64,000 nucleotides of DNA from Natronorubrum halophilum (GTDB taxonomy: Archaea > Halobacteriota > Halobacteria > Halobacteriales > Natrialbaceae): contig NZ_QQTY01000001.1 of assembly GCF_003670115.1 (NCBI RefSeq), forward strand, positions 1,054,001-1,118,000. Reading direction: 5' to 3'. Under the pieces are notes generated by a model. That model did no database searches. It saw only the letters and a program-made list of their open reading frames with translations, and was not told the DNA's origin. A program made the position numbers and the translations under genes. Below, in pieces: positions 10,471-24,443 of this stretch (position 1 is the first letter of the stretch; each line of letters opens with the position of its first letter).

Positions 10471-12282
10471 TTACTCGAGCAACGCGTCCATCTCCTCGAG
10501 ACGCTGCCCGTACGTCCCCAGGGCCCGATCGATCGGCTCCGAACTGCTCATGTCGACGCCGGCGATCCGGAGCAGGTCGAGCGGGTATTCCCGGGAACCG
10601 CGGCGGAGGAACTCGAGGTAGTCCTCGGCGGCGTCGCGGTTCGGTTCGCTTCCGGGTCCGTTTGGAAGGATGTCGTCGACGATAGCCAACGCGGCCGAGA
10701 TGCCGGTCGCGTACTGGTAGACGTAGAACGCCCGGTAGAAGTGGGGAATCCGCATCCATTCGGTGGCGATTCGGTCGTCGATCGTTGCGGGTTCGTAGTA
10801 GTCCTCCTTGAGCCCCCGGTAGATTTCGTCCAGCCGGTCGGCCGTGAGCGGTTCGCCCCCCTCCTCGAGTTCGTGCGTGTCGTGTTCGAACTCGGCGAAC
10901 AGGGTCTGGCGGTAGAGGGTCGAGCGCACGCGTTCTAAGAACTCGTTCAAGACGTGTTTCCGGAACTCGGGGTCGTCGACGGTCTCGAGGAGGTGGTTCG
11001 TCAACAGCGTCTCGTTGACCGTGCTCGCGACCTCGGCGACGAAGATCTCGTAACCCGAGTAGACGTACGGCTGGGCGTCCTGTGTCAACTCGGAGTGCAT
11101 CGAGTGGCCGAGTTCGTGGGCCAGCGTGTACATCGAGGAGATGTCGTCCTGGTAGTTCATCAGGATGAACGGCTGGGTGTCGTAGGTGCCGCCCGAATAT
11201 GCGCCGGACTGTTTGCCCTCGTTCTCGTAGACGTCGACCCACTGGGAGTCGAGCCCGTCCGCGACGCGGGACTGGTACTCGTCGCCGAGGGGAGCCAGCG
11301 CGTCGACGATGTACTCGGTCGCCCGATCGTACTCGACGTCGGGTCCCTCGTCGCCGGTCAGGGGCATGTACACGTCCCACATCTGAAGATCGTCGACCTC
11401 GAGGGCCTGTCGTTTGAGTTCGGCGTGGTGGTGAAGCTTGTCGAGGTTGTCGTGGACGGTATCGACGAGCGTGTCGTAGACGTCGACCGGGACGTTCGGC
11501 CCGTCGAGGGCGGCCTCGCGTGCGGTGTCGTAGTTTCGCGCCTGGGCTATCTTGACGTCAGCCTTCACGCTGTTCTTGTAGGCGGCCGCGACCGTGTTCC
11601 GGACGGACTCCCACTCGTCGAAGTACCCCTCGTAGACGCGCTGGCGGAACTCCCGATCGGGGCGTTTGAGCAGGTTGACGAAGTTGCTCTGGGTGATCTC
11701 GACGGGCTCGCCGTCGCCGTCTTCGACCGTCGGAAACGCCATATCCGCGTTCGAGAGCATGGTGTACACTTCACCGGTCGCGCCCGTGACCTCGCTCAGG
11801 TCCGCGAGGAGTTCCTCGACCTCCGCCGAGCGCGTGTGGGGTTTCATCCGGAGCACGTCGTCGATATAGTGGTCGTAAGTCTCGAGACCGGATTCGGTCT
11901 CGACCATCGTCTCGAACTCCTCGCGAGTCAGCTCCTGAATCTCGGGGTCGATGAAGGAGGCCGCGGACTGCGCGTCGGCTGCGAGCGACTGCGCGCGGGC
12001 GGTCAGCGCCTGGTACTGCTGGTTCGTCGTGTCCTCGTCGCGGCGCATCCGAGCGTAGGCTGCGACCATCGAGACCTCGCGCATGATCTCGTCGCGGAGC
12101 TCGAGCACCTCGAGAAGCGTTTTGGCGTCGTCGGTAACCTGTCCCTCGTAGGCGGCGAGATCGGTGACGCGCTCGGCGACGGCCTCGGAGGCGTCCTCCC
12201 AGTCGTCGTCCGTCGCATAGATGCTCTCGAGATCCCAGGTATATTCCTCGTCGACCTCGGAGCGTTCGGGAACGGAACTCAT
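10471..12282 (-). CDS. pepF: Oligoendopeptidase F (M3 family)
   Basis: This 603-residue cytosolic zinc metallopeptidase cleaves short peptides of about 7-17 residues. The catalytic HELGHSMHSE (HExxH plus downstream Glu ligand region) lies around residue 390, within the conserved AHELGHSMHSELTQDAQPYVYSG context. The N-terminal EYTWDLESIY is typical of PepF. The start MSSVPERSEVDEEYTWDL at 12282 is chosen; a longer frame extends upstream but is Arg-rich and enters the promoter of the divergent M28 gene. It is likely to act downstream of the proteasome in peptide recycling. Confidence 0.93.
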   Translation of the reverse strand: MSSVPERSEVDEEYTWDLESIYATDDDWEDASEAVAERVTDLAAYEGQVTDDAKTLLEVLELRDEIMREVSMVAAYARMRRDEDTTNQQYQALTARAQSLAADAQSAASFIDPEIQELTREEFETMVETESGLETYDHYIDDVLRMKPHTRSAEVEELLADLSEVTGATGEVYTMLSNADMAFPTVEDGDGEPVEITQSNFVNLLKRPDREFRQRVYEGYFDEWESVRNTVAAAYKNSVKADVKIAQARNYDTAREAALDGPNVPVDVYDTLVDTVHDNLDKLHHHAELKRQALEVDDLQMWDVYMPLTGDEGPDVEYDRATEYIVDALAPLGDEYQSRVADGLDSQWVDVYENEGKQSGAYSGGTYDTQPFILMNYQDDISSMYTLAHELGHSMHSELTQDAQPYVYSGYEIFVAEVASTVNETLLTNHLLETVDDPEFRKHVLNEFLERVRSTLYRQTLFAEFEHDTHELEEGGEPLTADRLDEIYRGLKEDYYEPATIDDRIATEWMRIPHFYRAFYVYQYATGISAALAIVDDILPNGPGSEPNRDAAEDYLEFLRRGSREYPLDLLRIAGVDMSSSEPIDRALGTYGQRLEEMDALLE

Positions 12283-16267: not shown

Positions 16268-16558
16268 CGGTTCGACCGAAGAGGGCGAGCGAGTTAGGAG
16301 CGTCGAACGATCCGCGACGGCTCGAGTGCACGCGTCGTCCGCCAGCCGCGCGTGTACCCGCTGCTACGTGGAGAATCACCGACCTGCGGCCGTCGCCACG
16401 ACTGCGCGATCGTCCTGTTCGATCGGGACGGACTGACACTGCCGGTGGAGGATCTCGTGGCCGATAATATCGAGGTTTCGGGCACATTCCAATATCGTGA
16501 ACCACCTGCATACTCCGGGGCGGTGGCCTTCCCTGCGAAGGGCGGAGTTGTGATAACC

Positions 16559-18070
16559 ATGGCGGGATCTACCGAAACCGAGAGTTCGTCGGCTAACGGG
16601 CGTGATTCGGAGTCACATCAATCCGTGCGGAACGTCGTCCTCGTCGTTCTCGATACGGCTCGAGCAAAGAGCAGCGGTCCGAAGACGACCCCGGCGCTGA
16701 CCGAACTTGCCGAGGAGGGAACGACCTTCGACAACGCTTTCGCGACCGCCCCGTGGACGTTGCCCTCCCACGCGTCGATGTTCACGGGGACGTATCCTTC
16801 CGAACACGGCACGCACGGCGGTCACACCTACCTCGACGAGGGGTTGCGGTCCCTCCCCGAGTCGTTCGCCGACTCGGGGTACGAGACGATCGGCGTCTCG
16901 AACAACACCTGGATCACCGAGGAGTTCGGGTTCCACCACGGCTTCGACGACCTCCGGAAGGGCTGGCAGTACATCCAGTCCGACTCGGATATGGGTGCCG
17001 TCGTCCGCGGCGAGGACGTTCGCGAGAAACTGCAGGCCACCCGAAATCGGCTGTTCGACGGCAACCCGTTCGTCAACGCGGCCAACATCCTCTACAGCGA
17101 AGTGTTCCAGCCGGCCGGCGACGACGGTGCCAACCGGTCAACGAAGTGGATCGCGAACTGGCTCGAGGCGCGCGAGGACGACCGCCCATTCTTCCTGTTC
17201 TGTAACTTCATCGAACCCCACGTCACGTACGATCCGCCTCGAGAGTACGCCGAACGGTTCCTTCCCGAGGACGCGAGCTACGACGAGGCGACGGACGTTC
17301 GACAGGACCCCCGCGCTTACGACTGCGAGGACTACGCTCTCTCCGAACGGGATCTCGAACTTCTCAGTGGGCTGTACGAAGCCGAACTCTCCTACGTGGA
17401 TGACCAACTCGGCCGGCTCCGAGCAGCGCTCGAGGACGCCGGCGAGTGGGAGGACACCCTCTTCGTCGTCTGTGGCGACCACGGCGAGCACATCGGCGAA
17501 CACGGCTTCTTCGGTCACCAGTACAACCTCTACGATACGCTGATCAACGTGCCGCTCGTGCTCCACGGCGGCCCGTTCACCGGCGGCGGGCGTCGGACTG
17601 ATCTCGTCCAGTTGCTCGACCTGCCAGCGACGTTCCTCGATACCCTCGAAATCGACGATCCCGAACTCACGAAACAGGGATCCGGACGCTCGATGCATCC
17701 GAGTTCGAAGGCCGAACCGCGAGCGGCCGTCTTCGCCGAGTACGTCGCTCCACAGCCCTCAATCGATCGGCTCGAGGCCCGTTTCGGCGAGATTCCCGAC
17801 CGAGTTCGGGAGTTCGACCGTCGACTCCGGGCCGTCCGCACGGACGAGTACAAGTACGTCCACGGGGACGATGGGTTCGAGCGACTCCACCACGTGAAGA
17901 CGGATCCGCACGAACGCACCGACATCTCGGCCAGGAAGCCCGAGCGGGTCCGAGCGCTCCGCGATCGACTCGACAAGCGGTTCGAACCGATCGAAGAGAC
18001 CAGAGAGAGAACCGACGTCGCGATGCGCGCGGGAACGAAAGAGCGACTGGCGGATCTGGGATACCTCTGA
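16559..18070 (+). CDS. Sulfatase-fold hydrolase (alkaline phosphatase superfamily)
   Basis: This 503-residue protein has the sulfatase fold. It shows a first metal-site motif VVLDTARA, the active-site segment PWTLPSHASMFTG, and C-terminal metal ligands in VCGDHGEHIGEHGFFGHQYN. The nucleophile position is Thr67 where true sulfatases have Cys or Ser that matures to formylglycine. It may therefore be a phosphatase or phosphotransferase rather than an arylsulfatase. No signal peptide is seen, so it is probably cytoplasmic. The ATG at 16559 is preferred over one 69 residues upstream because the extra segment is not family-like and contains AT-rich promoter-type sequence. Confidence 0.85.
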   Translation: MAGSTETESSSANGRDSESHQSVRNVVLVVLDTARAKSSGPKTTPALTELAEEGTTFDNAFATAPWTLPSHASMFTGTYPSEHGTHGGHTYLDEGLRSLPESFADSGYETIGVSNNTWITEEFGFHHGFDDLRKGWQYIQSDSDMGAVVRGEDVREKLQATRNRLFDGNPFVNAANILYSEVFQPAGDDGANRSTKWIANWLEAREDDRPFFLFCNFIEPHVTYDPPREYAERFLPEDASYDEATDVRQDPRAYDCEDYALSERDLELLSGLYEAELSYVDDQLGRLRAALEDAGEWEDTLFVVCGDHGEHIGEHGFFGHQYNLYDTLINVPLVLHGGPFTGGGRRTDLVQLLDLPATFLDTLEIDDPELTKQGSGRSMHPSSKAEPRAAVFAEYVAPQPSIDRLEARFGEIPDRVREFDRRLRAVRTDEYKYVHGDDGFERLHHVKTDPHERTDISARKPERVRALRDRLDKRFEPIEETRERTDVAMRAGTKERLADLGYL

Positions 18071-18672: not shown

Positions 18673-20085
18673 ATGAGTACCACCACCGCTCGCGACGACA
18701 CGAACGGATTCGTTCGCTTCTTTCGCAACTACACGAAGACGTGGATCCACGCCGTCGCGACGGCCGGGCTGACGGCGTTCGGGACGCTTACGATCGTCCA
18801 CCGCTGGTTCGCCGCCCTCGCACTCGCATCGTACGCCGTCCCGCCCGTCGTGTTGTATCTTCGACGCGGGCGGGCACGACCGCGCGACGAGACGCCCTCG
18901 AGCAGCGGGTCCGAGCCCTCGAGCGAAGACGGGCGGGAACGAAAGAGCGGAGCGGAACGCGCCGGATCAGAAGCGGAGGCCGACTCAGTCACGACGCCGG
19001 GTGCATCCGAGAGCCCAACGGCCTCGACCGCATCCCCAAGCGCGACGACGGCGGAGACGCCCGGTTCCGAGTCGCAGAAGACGACGGCGGAGCGCTCGAT
19101 CGAGCGCCAAACCGGCGCGAAGACGCTCGAGAACGCCGGATCGGCGGCCGGCGACGAGCGCGGCGAGCCGCGAGAGGAGACGGCGACTGCATCCACGGAC
19201 GCCGGCATATCGTGGCACTCCGTCGATGCATCCGCTGACGCGACGTTACGCGACGTAACCGTTCCGGCGACGGGCGGGGTCTACGCGGTCGGTGACGGCG
19301 GTACCGTCCTCGCCGGCGACGGCGCCGACGAGTGGTCGGTCGTTCTCGAGGACGGGCCGGCGGCCCGGGGAAACGACCTCCGCGGGGCCGACGCGACGGT
19401 CGACGGCGACGCGGTGTGGGTCGCGGGCGACAGCGGCTCGCTGGGCCGCATCGACGTCGAGACCGGACGCCACACGGACTACACGGCCCCGGAGGACGTC
19501 ACCAACAACTGGCTCGGCGTCGCCGTCGGCGGCGGAAGCGACGCGGAGACGGTCCTCCTGATAACCGGCTCCGGGGCGATCCTCCGCGGACGGTATCGCG
19601 ACGGTGCGCTCGAGTGGGTCGGTCCCGACAAGCCGGGCGGCGGCTCGAGTCTGAGCGGCGTCGCGCTCGCCGACGACGGCGTCGGCTACTGCTGTGACAC
19701 CAACGACGGCATCTTCGAGACGACCGACGGCGGCGAGTCGTTCGAGCGGATCGGGCTCGAGAGCGCCGACGGGACGCTCACCGATATCGCGACGACGGGG
19801 CGCGAAGACTGCCTGGTGAGCGCCGACGACGGCGTCGTCCACCGCCACGATGGGGCGACGTGGACCCCCGAACGCGTCGCCGACGGCTCGCTGAACGGGA
19901 TCGCTCGCCGCGGAGAGCGAACGGTCGTCTGTACCGGCGACGGCACGGTTTGCGAGCGAGCGACGCCGACGGCCGACTGGGAGCAGTTCGACGCCGACGC
20001 ATCCGGCGCGCTCCTGGCGGTCTCGACCGGCCCCGACCGCTCGGTCGCGGTCGGAGAGCGCGGAGCCATCGTCGAACGAAGGTAA
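18673..20085 (+). CDS. Membrane-anchored beta-propeller protein
   Basis: This 470-residue protein has three parts. A basic N-terminus is followed by two hydrophobic helices (about residues 20-60). A ~115-residue disordered linker rich in Ser, Thr, Glu and Ala follows. The remainder is a C-terminal propeller of repeated strands with GDGGTV, VWVAGDSGSLGRID and GAILRGRYRDG-type blades, comparable to YCF48/WD-like propellers. It is likely a scaffold facing the cytoplasm or exterior; the topology is not determined. It lies 31 bases before the P-type ATPase gene on the same strand, so co-transcription is likely and a joint role in metal handling is possible. The ATG at 18673 avoids an upstream non-acidic stretch. 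Confidence 0.72.
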   Translation: MSTTTARDDTNGFVRFFRNYTKTWIHAVATAGLTAFGTLTIVHRWFAALALASYAVPPVVLYLRRGRARPRDETPSSSGSEPSSEDGRERKSGAERAGSEAEADSVTTPGASESPTASTASPSATTAETPGSESQKTTAERSIERQTGAKTLENAGSAAGDERGEPREETATASTDAGISWHSVDASADATLRDVTVPATGGVYAVGDGGTVLAGDGADEWSVVLEDGPAARGNDLRGADATVDGDAVWVAGDSGSLGRIDVETGRHTDYTAPEDVTNNWLGVAVGGGSDAETVLLITGSGAILRGRYRDGALEWVGPDKPGGGSSLSGVALADDGVGYCCDTNDGIFETTDGGESFERIGLESADGTLTDIATTGREDCLVSADDGVVHRHDGATWTPERVADGSLNGIARRGERTVVCTGDGTVCERATPTADWEQFDADASGALLAVSTGPDRSVAVGERGAIVERR

Positions 20086-20116: not shown

Positions 20117-22795
20117 ATGGCGCTCGAGGATGGAGCTACTCGCGTGGTGAGCGACCGCGAAACCAAACGCAACCGCTGTCAACTGTGCGGGACGGCGTAC
20201 GGCGGGACGGCGAAGTCGGGTTCACGGCTCGAGGAGCCGTTCTGTTCGCCCGGCTGTCGCGAGATCGATCGAGTGCTCGACGATCCCGACCGCGAGAGCG
20301 AACGTGCCGACAGCGGCGGTAGCGGCGGAAACGACGACAGCAGCAAAAGTGAAAGGGGCAGCGGTAGCGGAGAAAGCGACGGCAGCGGCGGCAGCGACGA
20401 CAGTGATGGAAACGGTGACGCGAACCCCGTCGTTGCCCCCGAGGGTCGCAACGGCCCGAGCGAGGATCGCGAGCGCACGTTCTTCCGAATCGACGGCATG
20501 CACTCGGCGCTCTGTGAGTCCTACCTCGAATCGATCGCCGAGAACCAACGCGGCGTCTCGGCCGCGGCGGCGAGCTACGTCACGGAGACGGTCCGGGTCG
20601 ATCACGATCCCGATCGCATCTCGGCGACGGCCCTCGAGGACGCCCTGAGCACGACCGGTTACACGGCGTATCGACGGAAGGCGGCCACGGAGAGGGGGGA
20701 TACTAACGATGCGACGACCGACGCAAGTACCACTCACCGGTCACGAGAGATGCGGGGCATGCGAAAGCGCCGCTCGGAGACCGTCCTCGAGTTGCGCTAC
20801 ATCATCGGGGTCGTCTTCGGTTCGTTCCTGCTGGTTCCGTACGCGACGGTGTTTTACCCGGTCTACCTCTCGGAAGTGTCCGACTACTGGCTGTTCGAGA
20901 CCTACGGGGAGGCGTTCGCGAGTTTCGACGGCCTCCTGTTTCTGCCGGCGTTCCTCGTGACGACCGGGATCGTCCTCTACCTGACCGGGATGCCGATCCT
21001 GCGCGGCGCGTACGTGAGTCTGAAACTCCGGCAGCCGAGTACGCACCTGCTCGCGGCGTTCACGATCGTCGCCGCCTACTGCTACGGAACGGTCGCCTTC
21101 GCCGTCGGTCGACCGGAGATCTACTACGACCTGACGATCCTCGTCGCCGCGACCGTGATGGCCGCGGTCTTCTACGAGGCGACGGTCAAGCGCACGGCGT
21201 TGAACCGACTGACCGACCTCACGGTTTCGCAGGTCGGGACGGCCCGCATCCTCGAGTCCGACGGAACGACGCGCGAGCGTCCGGTCGAGGACGTCGCGGC
21301 CGACGACCGCCTGCTCGTTCGCGCTGGCGAGCGAATCCCGGTCGACGGCCACCTCGCAGAAGGGGAGTGTACCGTCGACGAGGCGGTCGTGACCGGCGAG
21401 TCCCTCCCCGTCTCGAAAAGCGCGGGAGACGCGGTGATTGGCGGATCGATCGTGACCGACGACGCCGCGGTCGTCGCCGTCGGCGATCGGACGACGAGCA
21501 GTATCGATCAGCTCACGCGCACCGTCTGGAATCTCCAGAGCGCCACCCACGGCGTCCAGCACCGGGCCGACGCGCTCGCTGCGATGGCGCTCCCCTTCGT
21601 TATCGGTGCTGTCGCCGTCGTCGGCCTGGGCAGCCTCCTGCTGGGCGCGAGCGCGACTGCCGCGGCGATGGCCGCGCTCCTGACGCTCGTCGTCGCGAGT
21701 CCGTGGGCGTTCGGGCTCGCAACCCCGTGTTCGATCGCCTCGAGCATCCGCGACGCCCTCGATGCCGGGATCGTCGTTTTCGACGAGAGTGTCTTCGAGC
21801 GGCTCCGAACCGTCGACGTCGTCGTCTTCGACAAGACCGGGACGCTGACGACCGGCGAGATGACCGTCCTCGAAGCGGACGCGCCGCCGGACCTCTTACG
21901 AGCGGCGGGGGCGATAGAGCGGCGCGCGTCGCACCCGGCGGCGGCAGCAATCGCGGACGCCTTCGCCGACGATAGCGACGGAAGCGACGGAACCGAGTCG
22001 GCGCGAACCGACGGCGGGGTCGCCGACGAAAACGCGGACGAGGAGCCTGGGGCCGGCGCGGTGCGGGAGTTCGAGCGCCACGCCACCGGCGTCGAGGGGC
22101 TCGTCGACGGACGGCGGATCCTCGTCGGCCATCCCGACTGCTTTCGGGAACGTGGGTGGACGCTCGAGGACGACCTCGAGTCGCGGGTCGCGGACGCGCG
22201 AGAATCCGGACTGCTCCCCGTCGTCGTCGGTCGGGACGGGCGCGCGGAGGGACTCGCCGTCGTCGGCGACGAAACGCGCGACGAGTGGGCGGAGACCGTG
22301 ACGGCGTTGGACGAGAGCGGCGTCGACGTCGTGGTACTCACCGGAGACGACGACGCGGCGGCGACTCGGTTCCGCCAGCATCCGGGCGTCGAACGCGTCT
22401 TCGCGGACGTCCCGCCCGCCGGAAAGACGGCGGCGATCCGACGGCTCCGCGCCGAGAACCGCGTGGCGATGGTCGGCGACGGGACGAACGACGCCCCCGC
22501 CCTCGCCGCGGCGGACCTGGGCATCTCGCTGGGCAGCGGGACGGCTCTCGCCGCCGACGCGGCCGATCTCGCGATCGTCGAGGACGACCTGGCCGCGGTC
22601 GAGCGGGCGTTCGCGCTGGCGCGTGCCGCCCACGGTCGCGTCGTCCAGAACCTCGGGCTGGCGCTCGTCTACAACGCGATCGTGATCCCCGCCGCGCTGG
22701 CGGGGCTGTTGAATCCGCTGGTGACGACCGTCGCGCTGGTCGCCAGCGGCGTGTTGATCGTCGGGAACTCCTCGAGGGCGCTGCTCGAGGCGTAG
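20117..22795 (+). CDS. Heavy-metal P1B-type ATPase with non-canonical SPW metal motif
   Basis: This 892-residue protein pumps a metal ion across the membrane using ATP. In order it has a TRASH-like Cys motif (CQLC ... FCSPGC, residues 15-55), a Ser/Gly/Asp-rich linker, and a degenerate HMA domain (GMHSALC in place of GMxCxxC). Eight predicted membrane helices follow, with actuator VTGES, phosphorylation site DKTGT (Asp572), ASHP, and hinge GDGTNDAPALAAADLGISLG. The transmembrane metal site that normally reads CPC is Ser528-Pro529-Trp530, with Cys538 eight residues later. Metal specificity cannot be predicted from known P1B classes. It is probably co-transcribed with the propeller gene upstream. 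Confidence 0.9.
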   Translation: MALEDGATRVVSDRETKRNRCQLCGTAYGGTAKSGSRLEEPFCSPGCREIDRVLDDPDRESERADSGGSGGNDDSSKSERGSGSGESDGSGGSDDSDGNGDANPVVAPEGRNGPSEDRERTFFRIDGMHSALCESYLESIAENQRGVSAAAASYVTETVRVDHDPDRISATALEDALSTTGYTAYRRKAATERGDTNDATTDASTTHRSREMRGMRKRRSETVLELRYIIGVVFGSFLLVPYATVFYPVYLSEVSDYWLFETYGEAFASFDGLLFLPAFLVTTGIVLYLTGMPILRGAYVSLKLRQPSTHLLAAFTIVAAYCYGTVAFAVGRPEIYYDLTILVAATVMAAVFYEATVKRTALNRLTDLTVSQVGTARILESDGTTRERPVEDVAADDRLLVRAGERIPVDGHLAEGECTVDEAVVTGESLPVSKSAGDAVIGGSIVTDDAAVVAVGDRTTSSIDQLTRTVWNLQSATHGVQHRADALAAMALPFVIGAVAVVGLGSLLLGASATAAAMAALLTLVVASPWAFGLATPCSIASSIRDALDAGIVVFDESVFERLRTVDVVVFDKTGTLTTGEMTVLEADAPPDLLRAAGAIERRASHPAAAAIADAFADDSDGSDGTESARTDGGVADENADEEPGAGAVREFERHATGVEGLVDGRRILVGHPDCFRERGWTLEDDLESRVADARESGLLPVVVGRDGRAEGLAVVGDETRDEWAETVTALDESGVDVVVLTGDDDAAATRFRQHPGVERVFADVPPAGKTAAIRRLRAENRVAMVGDGTNDAPALAAADLGISLGSGTALAADAADLAIVEDDLAAVERAFALARAAHGRVVQNLGLALVYNAIVIPAALAGLLNPLVTTVALVASGVLIVGNSSRALLEA

Positions 22796-22948: not shown

Positions 22949-24322
22949 CTACACCAGTCCGGCCGAACTCGCGGCGAAAATCGCCACGGAAAGCGCCACT
23001 AACAGCACACAGACGGCGGTCCCGATGGCCAGTGGCACGTTCTCCGTCGCCTTCTCGTGGATTGGCATCTCGGCGTACTCCTCGCGGAAGGCCTCGAGGT
23101 TCGCCTCGTCGTAGAAGTACTTGGTATCGAACGCGAATTGCCCGGTCACCGCACAGTCGGTACAGACGGGTTCGCCCTCGAGGCGCTCCGTTTCGATGTG
23201 ATCGTCGCAGTTGATGCTGCCGCAGTTGTCGCAGTACGTGTAGTTCGCGCTCGCTCCGTTCGTATCGCAGTGAACGCACTGGCGGAGTTCGTTCGTCGTG
23301 GTCGACCGCGAGGGGCCGGCAGCGTAGTACGCGTACTGATAGTCGTACTCTCCGAGCGGAAGCCGGGACCGGACGTGGGGCACGTAGACGGGATCGATCG
23401 ACCAGATCGAGACGTCCGATCGCTTCGGCGTGCACGTCTTCTCGTAGTCGACGTGGTTGCCGCCCGTGTACTGGACCGTCGTCGTGTGAACCTGCTGAAG
23501 CCGATCGATGGCCCACTGCTTGTAGGTCGTCTCGGTCCGGCCGAACCGCGCGCGCGTGACGTCGTCGAAGGTGCCCTCGATATCGCCGGCCTCGAGATCG
23601 ATCCGGGGTGCCGACGGGTTCGCGACGAGGTCTCTGACGTCACCGGTCGCGATCCGCGGCGAGTCGCCGTCGGCGCGGATCACGAGGTCGTTCGACTCGT
23701 CGACCTGGTGGACGACGCCGACGGTCGTCTCGAACGTCGCGCTCGTCTTCGTGTGGACGGTCACCATCGGCTCGAGGGAGACGGTCGTCTCGGGCGTCGG
23801 AATCGTCGCGGCCTCGAGATTTTCGATCTCGTGTGCGGCCTCGAAGACGGGCGCGTCCCGGCCGGCGGTCGGGTGAGTCGGTCGAAGCGCCTCTTCACAG
23901 AGGATCTCGATCCGGCCGTTGTAGAGGTCCATGCCGATCTCACCGCTGATCTCTCTGATGTCTTTCCCGTCTATGAGTTCGACGCCGCCGTCCCGTCTGG
24001 TTCCCAGACCCCGCGCGTACTCTCGGGCGGGGTCGGTAAAGCGTCCGGACGTTACCACCAGTCCTCGAACCGGCCCGTCGTAGTCGTAGGTCTCGACCGC
24101 CGAGTGCAGCTTCTGGATCACCGGTCGGCCCACGGTCTCCGTGTGCTTGCACTCGACGACGATCGCCCGCCGTCGACCGTCGACGACCTCTTCCATCAAG
24201 ATGTCCCGCCCTTCGTCGGCCGTTCGCCTCGATTGGCGGACGCTCTCGTAGCCGAGGTTTCGAAACACGTCCTCCATGAGATCCTCGAACTCGTAGCCCG
24301 AGAGATCGTCGAGTATCGCCAT
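22949..24322 (-). CDS. Mrr-type restriction endonuclease domain protein with zinc ribbon and C-terminal membrane helix
   Basis: This 457-residue protein begins with an Mrr-like PD-(D/E)XK nuclease domain: GYEFEDLMEDVFRNLGY, then GRDILMEE and IVVECKHTE (the D...ECK catalytic core), then LVVTSGRFTDPAREYA. A long middle region with beta-rich segments follows, then a double zinc ribbon (CVHC ... CDNCGSINCDDH ... CTDC) and one hydrophobic helix near the C-terminus (VPLAIGTAVCVLLVALSVAIF). The start at 24322 puts the nuclease domain at the N-terminus; GTG or ATG codons 10-28 residues upstream are possible. The membrane helix predicts an anchored nuclease. No methyltransferase gene is next to it. 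Confidence 0.8.
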   Translation of the reverse strand: MAILDDLSGYEFEDLMEDVFRNLGYESVRQSRRTADEGRDILMEEVVDGRRRAIVVECKHTETVGRPVIQKLHSAVETYDYDGPVRGLVVTSGRFTDPAREYARGLGTRRDGGVELIDGKDIREISGEIGMDLYNGRIEILCEEALRPTHPTAGRDAPVFEAAHEIENLEAATIPTPETTVSLEPMVTVHTKTSATFETTVGVVHQVDESNDLVIRADGDSPRIATGDVRDLVANPSAPRIDLEAGDIEGTFDDVTRARFGRTETTYKQWAIDRLQQVHTTTVQYTGGNHVDYEKTCTPKRSDVSIWSIDPVYVPHVRSRLPLGEYDYQYAYYAAGPSRSTTTNELRQCVHCDTNGASANYTYCDNCGSINCDDHIETERLEGEPVCTDCAVTGQFAFDTKYFYDEANLEAFREEYAEMPIHEKATENVPLAIGTAVCVLLVALSVAIFAASSAGLV

Positions 24323-24443
24323 CGCGTTCACGAAGTATAGACAGTCCATCATTGATAGCGTTTCGCCCTCGGTCTCGTCGTCGAGTATCGGTACCGGTTG
24401 CCACACCTGAAACGTCTTTTAGCGTGTCCGTGGTTCGACGGCT

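Follow-up and report, generated by a model that had tools for sequence, protein, structure and literature searches.

A haloarchaeal clade of P1B-type ATPases with Pro-Trp in the M4 motif, possibly repurposed from copper-pump ancestors

The window, a stretch of 64,000 nucleotides of haloarchaeal DNA (C1:1054001-1118000 of a 4.67 Mb assembly), carries a gene for a P-type ATPase whose product has a CxxC...CxxxC segment at its N-terminus, followed by an HMA domain and a full P1B ATPase (Table 1); proteins of this kind are annotated merely as 'cation-translocating P-type ATPase'. P1B ATPases are classified by the metal ligands in membrane helices M4-M6, and the generic M4 motif Cys/Ser/Thr-Pro-Cys/His is not matched here: as a first-pass annotation of the sequence had claimed, SPW replaces CPC. 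Its distance to the DKTGT aspartate equals that of CPC, and the alignment with CopA is gap-free around it (CopA VVACPCAFGLATP vs. VVASPWAFGLATP in the window protein). That annotation had also described the catalytic ATPase motifs as intact and the metal site of the HMA domain as degenerate, and both descriptions hold: TGES, DKTGT, SHP, TGD and GDGTNDAP (GDGxNDxP) are all found, the M5 motif YN(X)4P is present (YNAIVIP at 852), and GMHSALC stands at residues 127-133 in place of the canonical HMA motif GMxCxxC. It had pointed out Cys538 as well, but a role for this residue is not supported: in the 61 xPW proteins described below (x being Ser, Cys, Thr or Ala) the position is Leu in 35, Tyr in 13, Val in 7, Cys in only 5 and Ala in 1.

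Table 1. Features of the ATPase gene and its neighbours, in window coordinates
Feature	Position	Strand	Basis or remark
Sulfatase-like gene	16352..18070	+	Synteny with the ATPase gene kept in Natrialbaceae; name based on sequence
Membrane-anchored YCF48-like beta-propeller gene, directly upstream, 31-bp gap	18673..20085	+	Weak PF14870 match below cut-off
xPW-type P1B ATPase gene, 892 aa	20117..22795	+	Pfam E1-E2_ATPase, Hydrolase, HMA; TIGR01525
N-terminal four-Cys site C21xxC24...F-C43-S-P-G-C47	20177..20257	+	TRASH-like by eye, without Pfam match
HMA domain, residues 123-183	20483..20665	+	First CxxC Cys replaced by Ser130; second is Cys133
Thr309, position of the CopA entry Met158	21041..21043	+	Alignment to CopA
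Cys418, A (actuator) domain, 8 residues ahead of TGES	21368..21370	+	Invariant in the xPW clade
TGES phosphatase motif, residues 426-429	21392..21403	+	Motif match
M4 motif Ser528-Pro529-Trp530, replacing CPC	21698..21706	+	Codons AGT CCG TGG
Cys538	21728..21730	+	Codon TGT; Cys in 5/61 xPW proteins
DKTGT phosphorylation motif, residues 572-576	21830..21844	+	Motif match
Tyr852-Asn853, sole CopA transport-site motif retained	22670..22675	+	Tyr 59/61, Asn 61/61
M6 LVASG, a degraded MxxSS	22736..22750	+	CPC sister M, S and S, 43/43 each
Mrr-type restriction endonuclease domain protein, convergent to the ATPase	22952..24409	-	PF04471, E 4.7e-25

We sampled 114 loci, comprising 80 of 542 relatives, 30 drawn from 195 genomes of the order and four from the window's own genome. 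They contained 124 P1B ORFs (CPC 48, SPW 46, CPW 15, CPH 8, TPW 4 and APW 3), 68 of which have Trp at the position of the second CPC cysteine; these shares are not frequencies, because the loci were chosen by similarity to the window protein. Dropping identical rows left 116 sequences (61 xPW, 48 CPC and 7 CPH), and all 61 distinct xPW proteins carry Trp530. A sequencing error at 21698-21706, which the first-pass annotation had named as a possible refutation, is ruled out because 61 distinct sequences share the Trp, and SPW is not the one-off motif it had seemed, since at least 61 proteins form a clade. In the phylogeny proposed as a check, which we built without the motif columns, the xPW proteins form one clade (support 100, stem 0.28) nested within the haloarchaeal CPC (CopA2/CcoI-like) ATPases and do not cluster with a characterised subclass; the fork uniting them with three CPC rows has a support of 82. 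Trp530 has a single origin on this tree, the residue ahead of the Pro changes 9 times, and the M6 positions change 15-20 times. Pairwise identity within xPW falls to 0.49, and the Trp has therefore persisted through deep divergence.

A Pro-Trp...DKTGT pattern at the correct spacing occurs in 127 of 392 genomes of the order, representing 35 of 95 genera (reversed control 0), and in 84 of 96 genomes of the window's family (hand count from the table). In a phylum-wide draw it was found in 29 of 392 genomes, all among the 81 drawn from the order, with one match in the reversed control; none of the 311 genomes outside the order in the same phylum contained it (hand count). An initial version of the pattern had matched one genome outside the order (G407), which proved to be chance, the reading frame containing stops, and among 11 pattern matches in viral contigs none was an ATPase. 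Excerpts of the open-access literature searched gave no description of a Pro-Trp P1B ATPase.

An excerpt of PMC9433437 gives the Cu+ residues of CopA as M158 (entry), C380 and C382 (CPC), Y682, N683, M711, S714 and S715. We compared the equivalent positions in the xPW proteins with those in 43 of the 48 CPC rows, namely the rows in the same haloarchaeal group (the CPC sister), excluding the five that belong to other P1B groups (L001, L003 and the minus-strand rows of L017, L020 and L028). Position 309 (M158) is Met in 42/43 CPC sister proteins and Thr in 54/60 xPW proteins; position 528 (C380) is Cys in 43/43 vs. Ser in 43, Cys in 11, Thr in 4 and Ala in 3 of 61; position 530 (C382) is Cys in 43/43 vs. 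Trp in 61/61; position 874 (M711) is Met in 43/43 vs. Val in 40, Ala in 9, Leu in 6, Thr in 3, Ile in 2 and Phe in 1; and positions 877 and 878 (S714 and S715), each Ser in 43/43, are mixtures in xPW. Tyr-Asn is retained at 852 and 853. Outside the transport domain, the first HMA cysteine (position 130) is present in 42/42 CPC sister proteins vs. 6/60 xPW proteins and the second (Cys133) in 59/60 xPW proteins; four N-terminal cysteines (Cys21, 24, 43 and 47) are retained in xPW, and position 44, Cys in the CPC sister, is Ser in the window protein and in 51/59 xPW proteins. Judged by this alignment, the xPW clade has dropped almost all of the Cu+ ligands established for CopA, and Tyr-Asn alone remains. 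The M4 motif is without any Cys in 50/61 xPW proteins and has one (CPW) in 11/61; five CPW members hold all three checked cysteines (C44, C130 and C528). When Cys at 44, 130 and 528 was cross-tabulated in the 61 xPW proteins, 34 read SSS and 5 CCC; a correlated loss was considered and dropped, and coevolution of the three positions is not claimed, because there are just 1-2 phylogenetically independent pairs and the sign test is empty.

The domains have not diverged evenly. With rows thinned to <85% identity (41 xPW, 35 CPC), overall identity is alike in the two sets (xPW 0.586, CPC 0.572), M3-M6 are less conserved in xPW (0.488 vs. 0.689), and the A domain (0.652 vs. 0.579), P domain (0.705 vs. 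0.654) and N domain (0.529 vs. 0.442) are more conserved; a bootstrap of the difference gave -0.26 (95% -0.28 to -0.24), although the resampled rows are related to one another and the procedure does not amount to a phylogenetic test. Values of dN/dS in xPW range from 0.10 to 0.33 with a median of 0.18 (129 non-independent pairs), vs. a median of 0.25 in CPC (51 pairs). Taken with the domain identities, these values indicate that xPW is under purifying selection, which is far weaker on the Cu+ path. A CopA2-like gene decaying towards loss, i.e., a pseudo-pump, would account for the change from Cys to Ser at three metal sites (C44, C130 and C528) and for the relaxed M3-M6, but dN/dS is lower than in CPC, the gene is retained in 84/96 genomes of the family, and Trp530, Cys418 and the catalytic residues are invariant; we regard decay as very improbable. 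The relaxation of M3-M6 beside an engine tighter than that of the CPC sister would also suit a non-transporting regulatory ATPase with a plugged path, in which the four-Cys site, Cys133 and Cys418 sense metal or redox state and the cycle acts on a partner.

Residues were scored as gained when present in >=95% of xPW and <=10% of CPC sister proteins, which yielded ten: L224, Y228, F237, L251, L339, T366, L413, C418, A451 and W530. Cys418 occurs in 61/61 xPW proteins, 1/43 CPC sister proteins and 0/12 other P1B rows used as outgroups, and is possibly a redox or metal switch. Position 451 is likewise altered in this clade, from Leu to Ala. In the xPW membrane helices, no acidic residue, His, Cys or Met was found to be newly conserved. 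The steric bulk of Trp530 might, at a guess, be offset at 309, 491 and 874, where the residues are smaller; of these, 491 has no established contact with the site. A regulatory ATPase would be in keeping with a membrane domain that has gained no conserved ligand set, and with the retention of Cys21, 24, 43, 47 and 133 and the gain of Cys418; P-type cycles are, however, normally coupled to a cargo.

Family models place the protein among the P1B ATPases and outside their Cu+ and Zn2+/Cd2+ classes. The window protein (P0001) scores 395.7 bits with TIGR01525 (cut-off 346.25), 346.2 with TIGR01511 for Cu+ (cut-off 397; a CPW member from locus L018 is also below it, at 372.7), 275 with TIGR01512 for Zn2+/Cd2+ (cut-off 313.5) and 134.4 with TIGR01497 for KdpB, P1A (cut-off 527.9); a CPC sister protein from locus L054 exceeds both the Cu+ and the Cd NCBIfam cut-offs. 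An AlphaFold2 model built from 72 sequences has the P1B fold (pLDDT 84.7, pTM 0.84), with a helix break at M4, one helix ending at 527 and the next starting at 532, as is usual at the M4 proline. Its best solved match is the Cu+ ATPase 4bbj (Z 30.8, rmsd 3.6 over 630 residues). The nearest clade is the haloarchaeal CPC group of the CopA2/CcoI/FixI kind (42-49% identity to the window protein in 18 rows), whose CopA2/CcoI-like nature is suggested by resemblance and context; the two share the architecture of N-terminal CxxC...C..GC, HMA and P1B ATPase, but CPC, Met309, Met874, Ser877/878 and CxxC are retained in the CPC group and not in xPW. With P1B-1 (CopA, LpCopA and ATP7B) the xPW proteins have the fold, the catalytic motifs and Tyr-Asn in common, whereas the hallmarks CPC, MxxSS, entry Met (AfCopA M158) and HMA CxxC are missing in the window protein. 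P1B-2 is marked by a Lys after QN in M5 and an Asp in M6, as stated in an excerpt of PMC4932525; the window protein shares the general P1B fold with ZntA (4umw, Z 28.6) but has neither these residues nor CPC, and falls below the TIGR01512 cut-off. By the features compared, the protein is a P1B ATPase in descent and predicted fold and belongs to neither P1B-1 nor P1B-2. An orphan class, P1B-7, has its substrate listed as unknown in an excerpt of PMC7558416.

We surveyed the neighbours of 38 xPW and 42 CPC loci with heuristic gene calling, which may misplace or miss genes. A TauE/SafE-like gene, named from the family sequence and the annotation of one neighbour, adjoins 21/42 CPC loci and 0/38 xPW loci, a zero that may miss some, several xPW contigs being short. 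Metal islands surround 10/38 xPW loci, all in one branch and several near-identical, with some of the following at each locus: cupredoxin, multicopper oxidase, CPH or other P1B ATPases, cation diffusion facilitator, DsbB and cytochrome bd; a named example is plasmid pNG600 of Haloarcula marismortui (ATPase copy RR_RS01705), and further copies were also found. Another 11/38 loci are chromosomal and of the window type, lying by a YCF48-like propeller protein, a sulfatase or TruA (several of the names taken from sequence alone), and none of the metal genes looked for was found at them. The YCF48-like neighbour recurs in several Natrialbaceae (8/38 xPW loci), and at 17/38 loci no listed neighbour is present.

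Each of the 10 island loci also holds a multipass membrane protein of an undescribed family close to or directly beside the ATPase, which could be a partner of a regulatory ATPase; no partner is, however, common to all branches, since 17/38 loci are without listed neighbours. With evidence on both sides, we rate a regulatory role as unlikely, if deserving serious consideration. This membrane protein (in L021 at 10800-12008, minus strand) has a conserved ..SAHG near its N-terminus and an invariant CxCGCCGP; the L021 copy matches no Pfam or NCBIfam model, and an AF2 model of the protein has a pLDDT of 55. It was also seen in L017, L018, L020, L022-L025, L027, L028 and L034, and further in L100, L104, L105, L108, L109, L111, L112, L123, L125, L129 and L130.

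The islands bear equally on whether xPW proteins still transport Cu+ or Ag+ through a rebuilt site, in which Trp530 would make a cation-pi contact aided by Tyr-Asn and, in CPW members, by one Cys. In CusF, a Trp binds Cu+ through such a contact, and a copper role would fit the island loci, pNG600 included, the retention of Tyr852-Asn853 and the single M4 Cys of the CPW members. Against it, the path has lost its Met and most of its Cys/Ser ligands, no conserved Met was found in the xPW membrane helices, most members are without any M4 Cys, and the window-type chromosomal loci are without the metal neighbours looked for. The window's genome, moreover, encodes separate CPC and CPH ATPases: its three further P1B ATPases are a CPC (CopA-like) protein, a CPH protein and one reading CPCAFVISTP, and no member of the haloarchaeal CPC group was found among its PF00122 matches. 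We therefore consider a rebuilt Cu+/Ag+ pump improbable.

An intact engine, a dismantled copper path and the recurrence of both in many relatives suggest that the xPW protein probably has a function other than copper transport, and, as far as sequence comparison can tell, it is best read as not being a canonical Cu+ or Zn2+ pump. The first-pass suggestion of a different metal chemistry or a non-metal cargo stands in its direction and appears strengthened by the clade-wide loss of ligands and the missed Cu+ and Cd cut-offs. The reading we favour, to which we give about an even chance, is that xPW is a P1B ATPase repurposed from CPC (CopA2/CcoI-like) ancestors for a cargo without soft-metal ligands. 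In a copper-pump ancestor, the membrane site would have been rebuilt once around Trp and then freed from Cu+ constraints, and the engine (A, P and N domains) would have been held under continued selection. Trp530 would close the old ion path, so that neither Cu+ nor Zn2+ could pass by the canonical thiolate/thioether route, while the phosphorylation cycle via Asp572 would still run; Trp530, the conserved first-helix aromatics Tyr228, Phe234 and Phe237, and Tyr852-Asn853 may shape a new cargo path, and the N-terminal cysteines with Cys418 may preserve a regulatory metal or redox input. Against repurposing for another cargo stand the copper/heavy-metal islands, which fit a metal role; the retained N-terminal cysteines, together with the five CPW proteins that keep C44, C130 and C528; and the lack of a new conserved charged or metal-ligand membrane residue that would point to such a cargo. 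A Trp-plugged, P1B-derived engine might also move no metal at all, the N-terminal cysteines and Cys418 feeding an ATP-driven metal/redox sensor or the drive of a partner, which we think rather unlikely.

An engine kept while nearly all ligands were dropped, in 84/96 genomes of the family, suggests that the P1B scaffold can take on another task, and the xPW proteins caution against reading 'heavy-metal pump' from annotation. CPW, SPW, TPW and APW, together with a close CPC sister, form a natural series for studying what M4 requires for transport. Several genomes hold more than one xPW copy, with three in G043 (contigs C5 and C6) and two each in G514, G555, G639 and G673.
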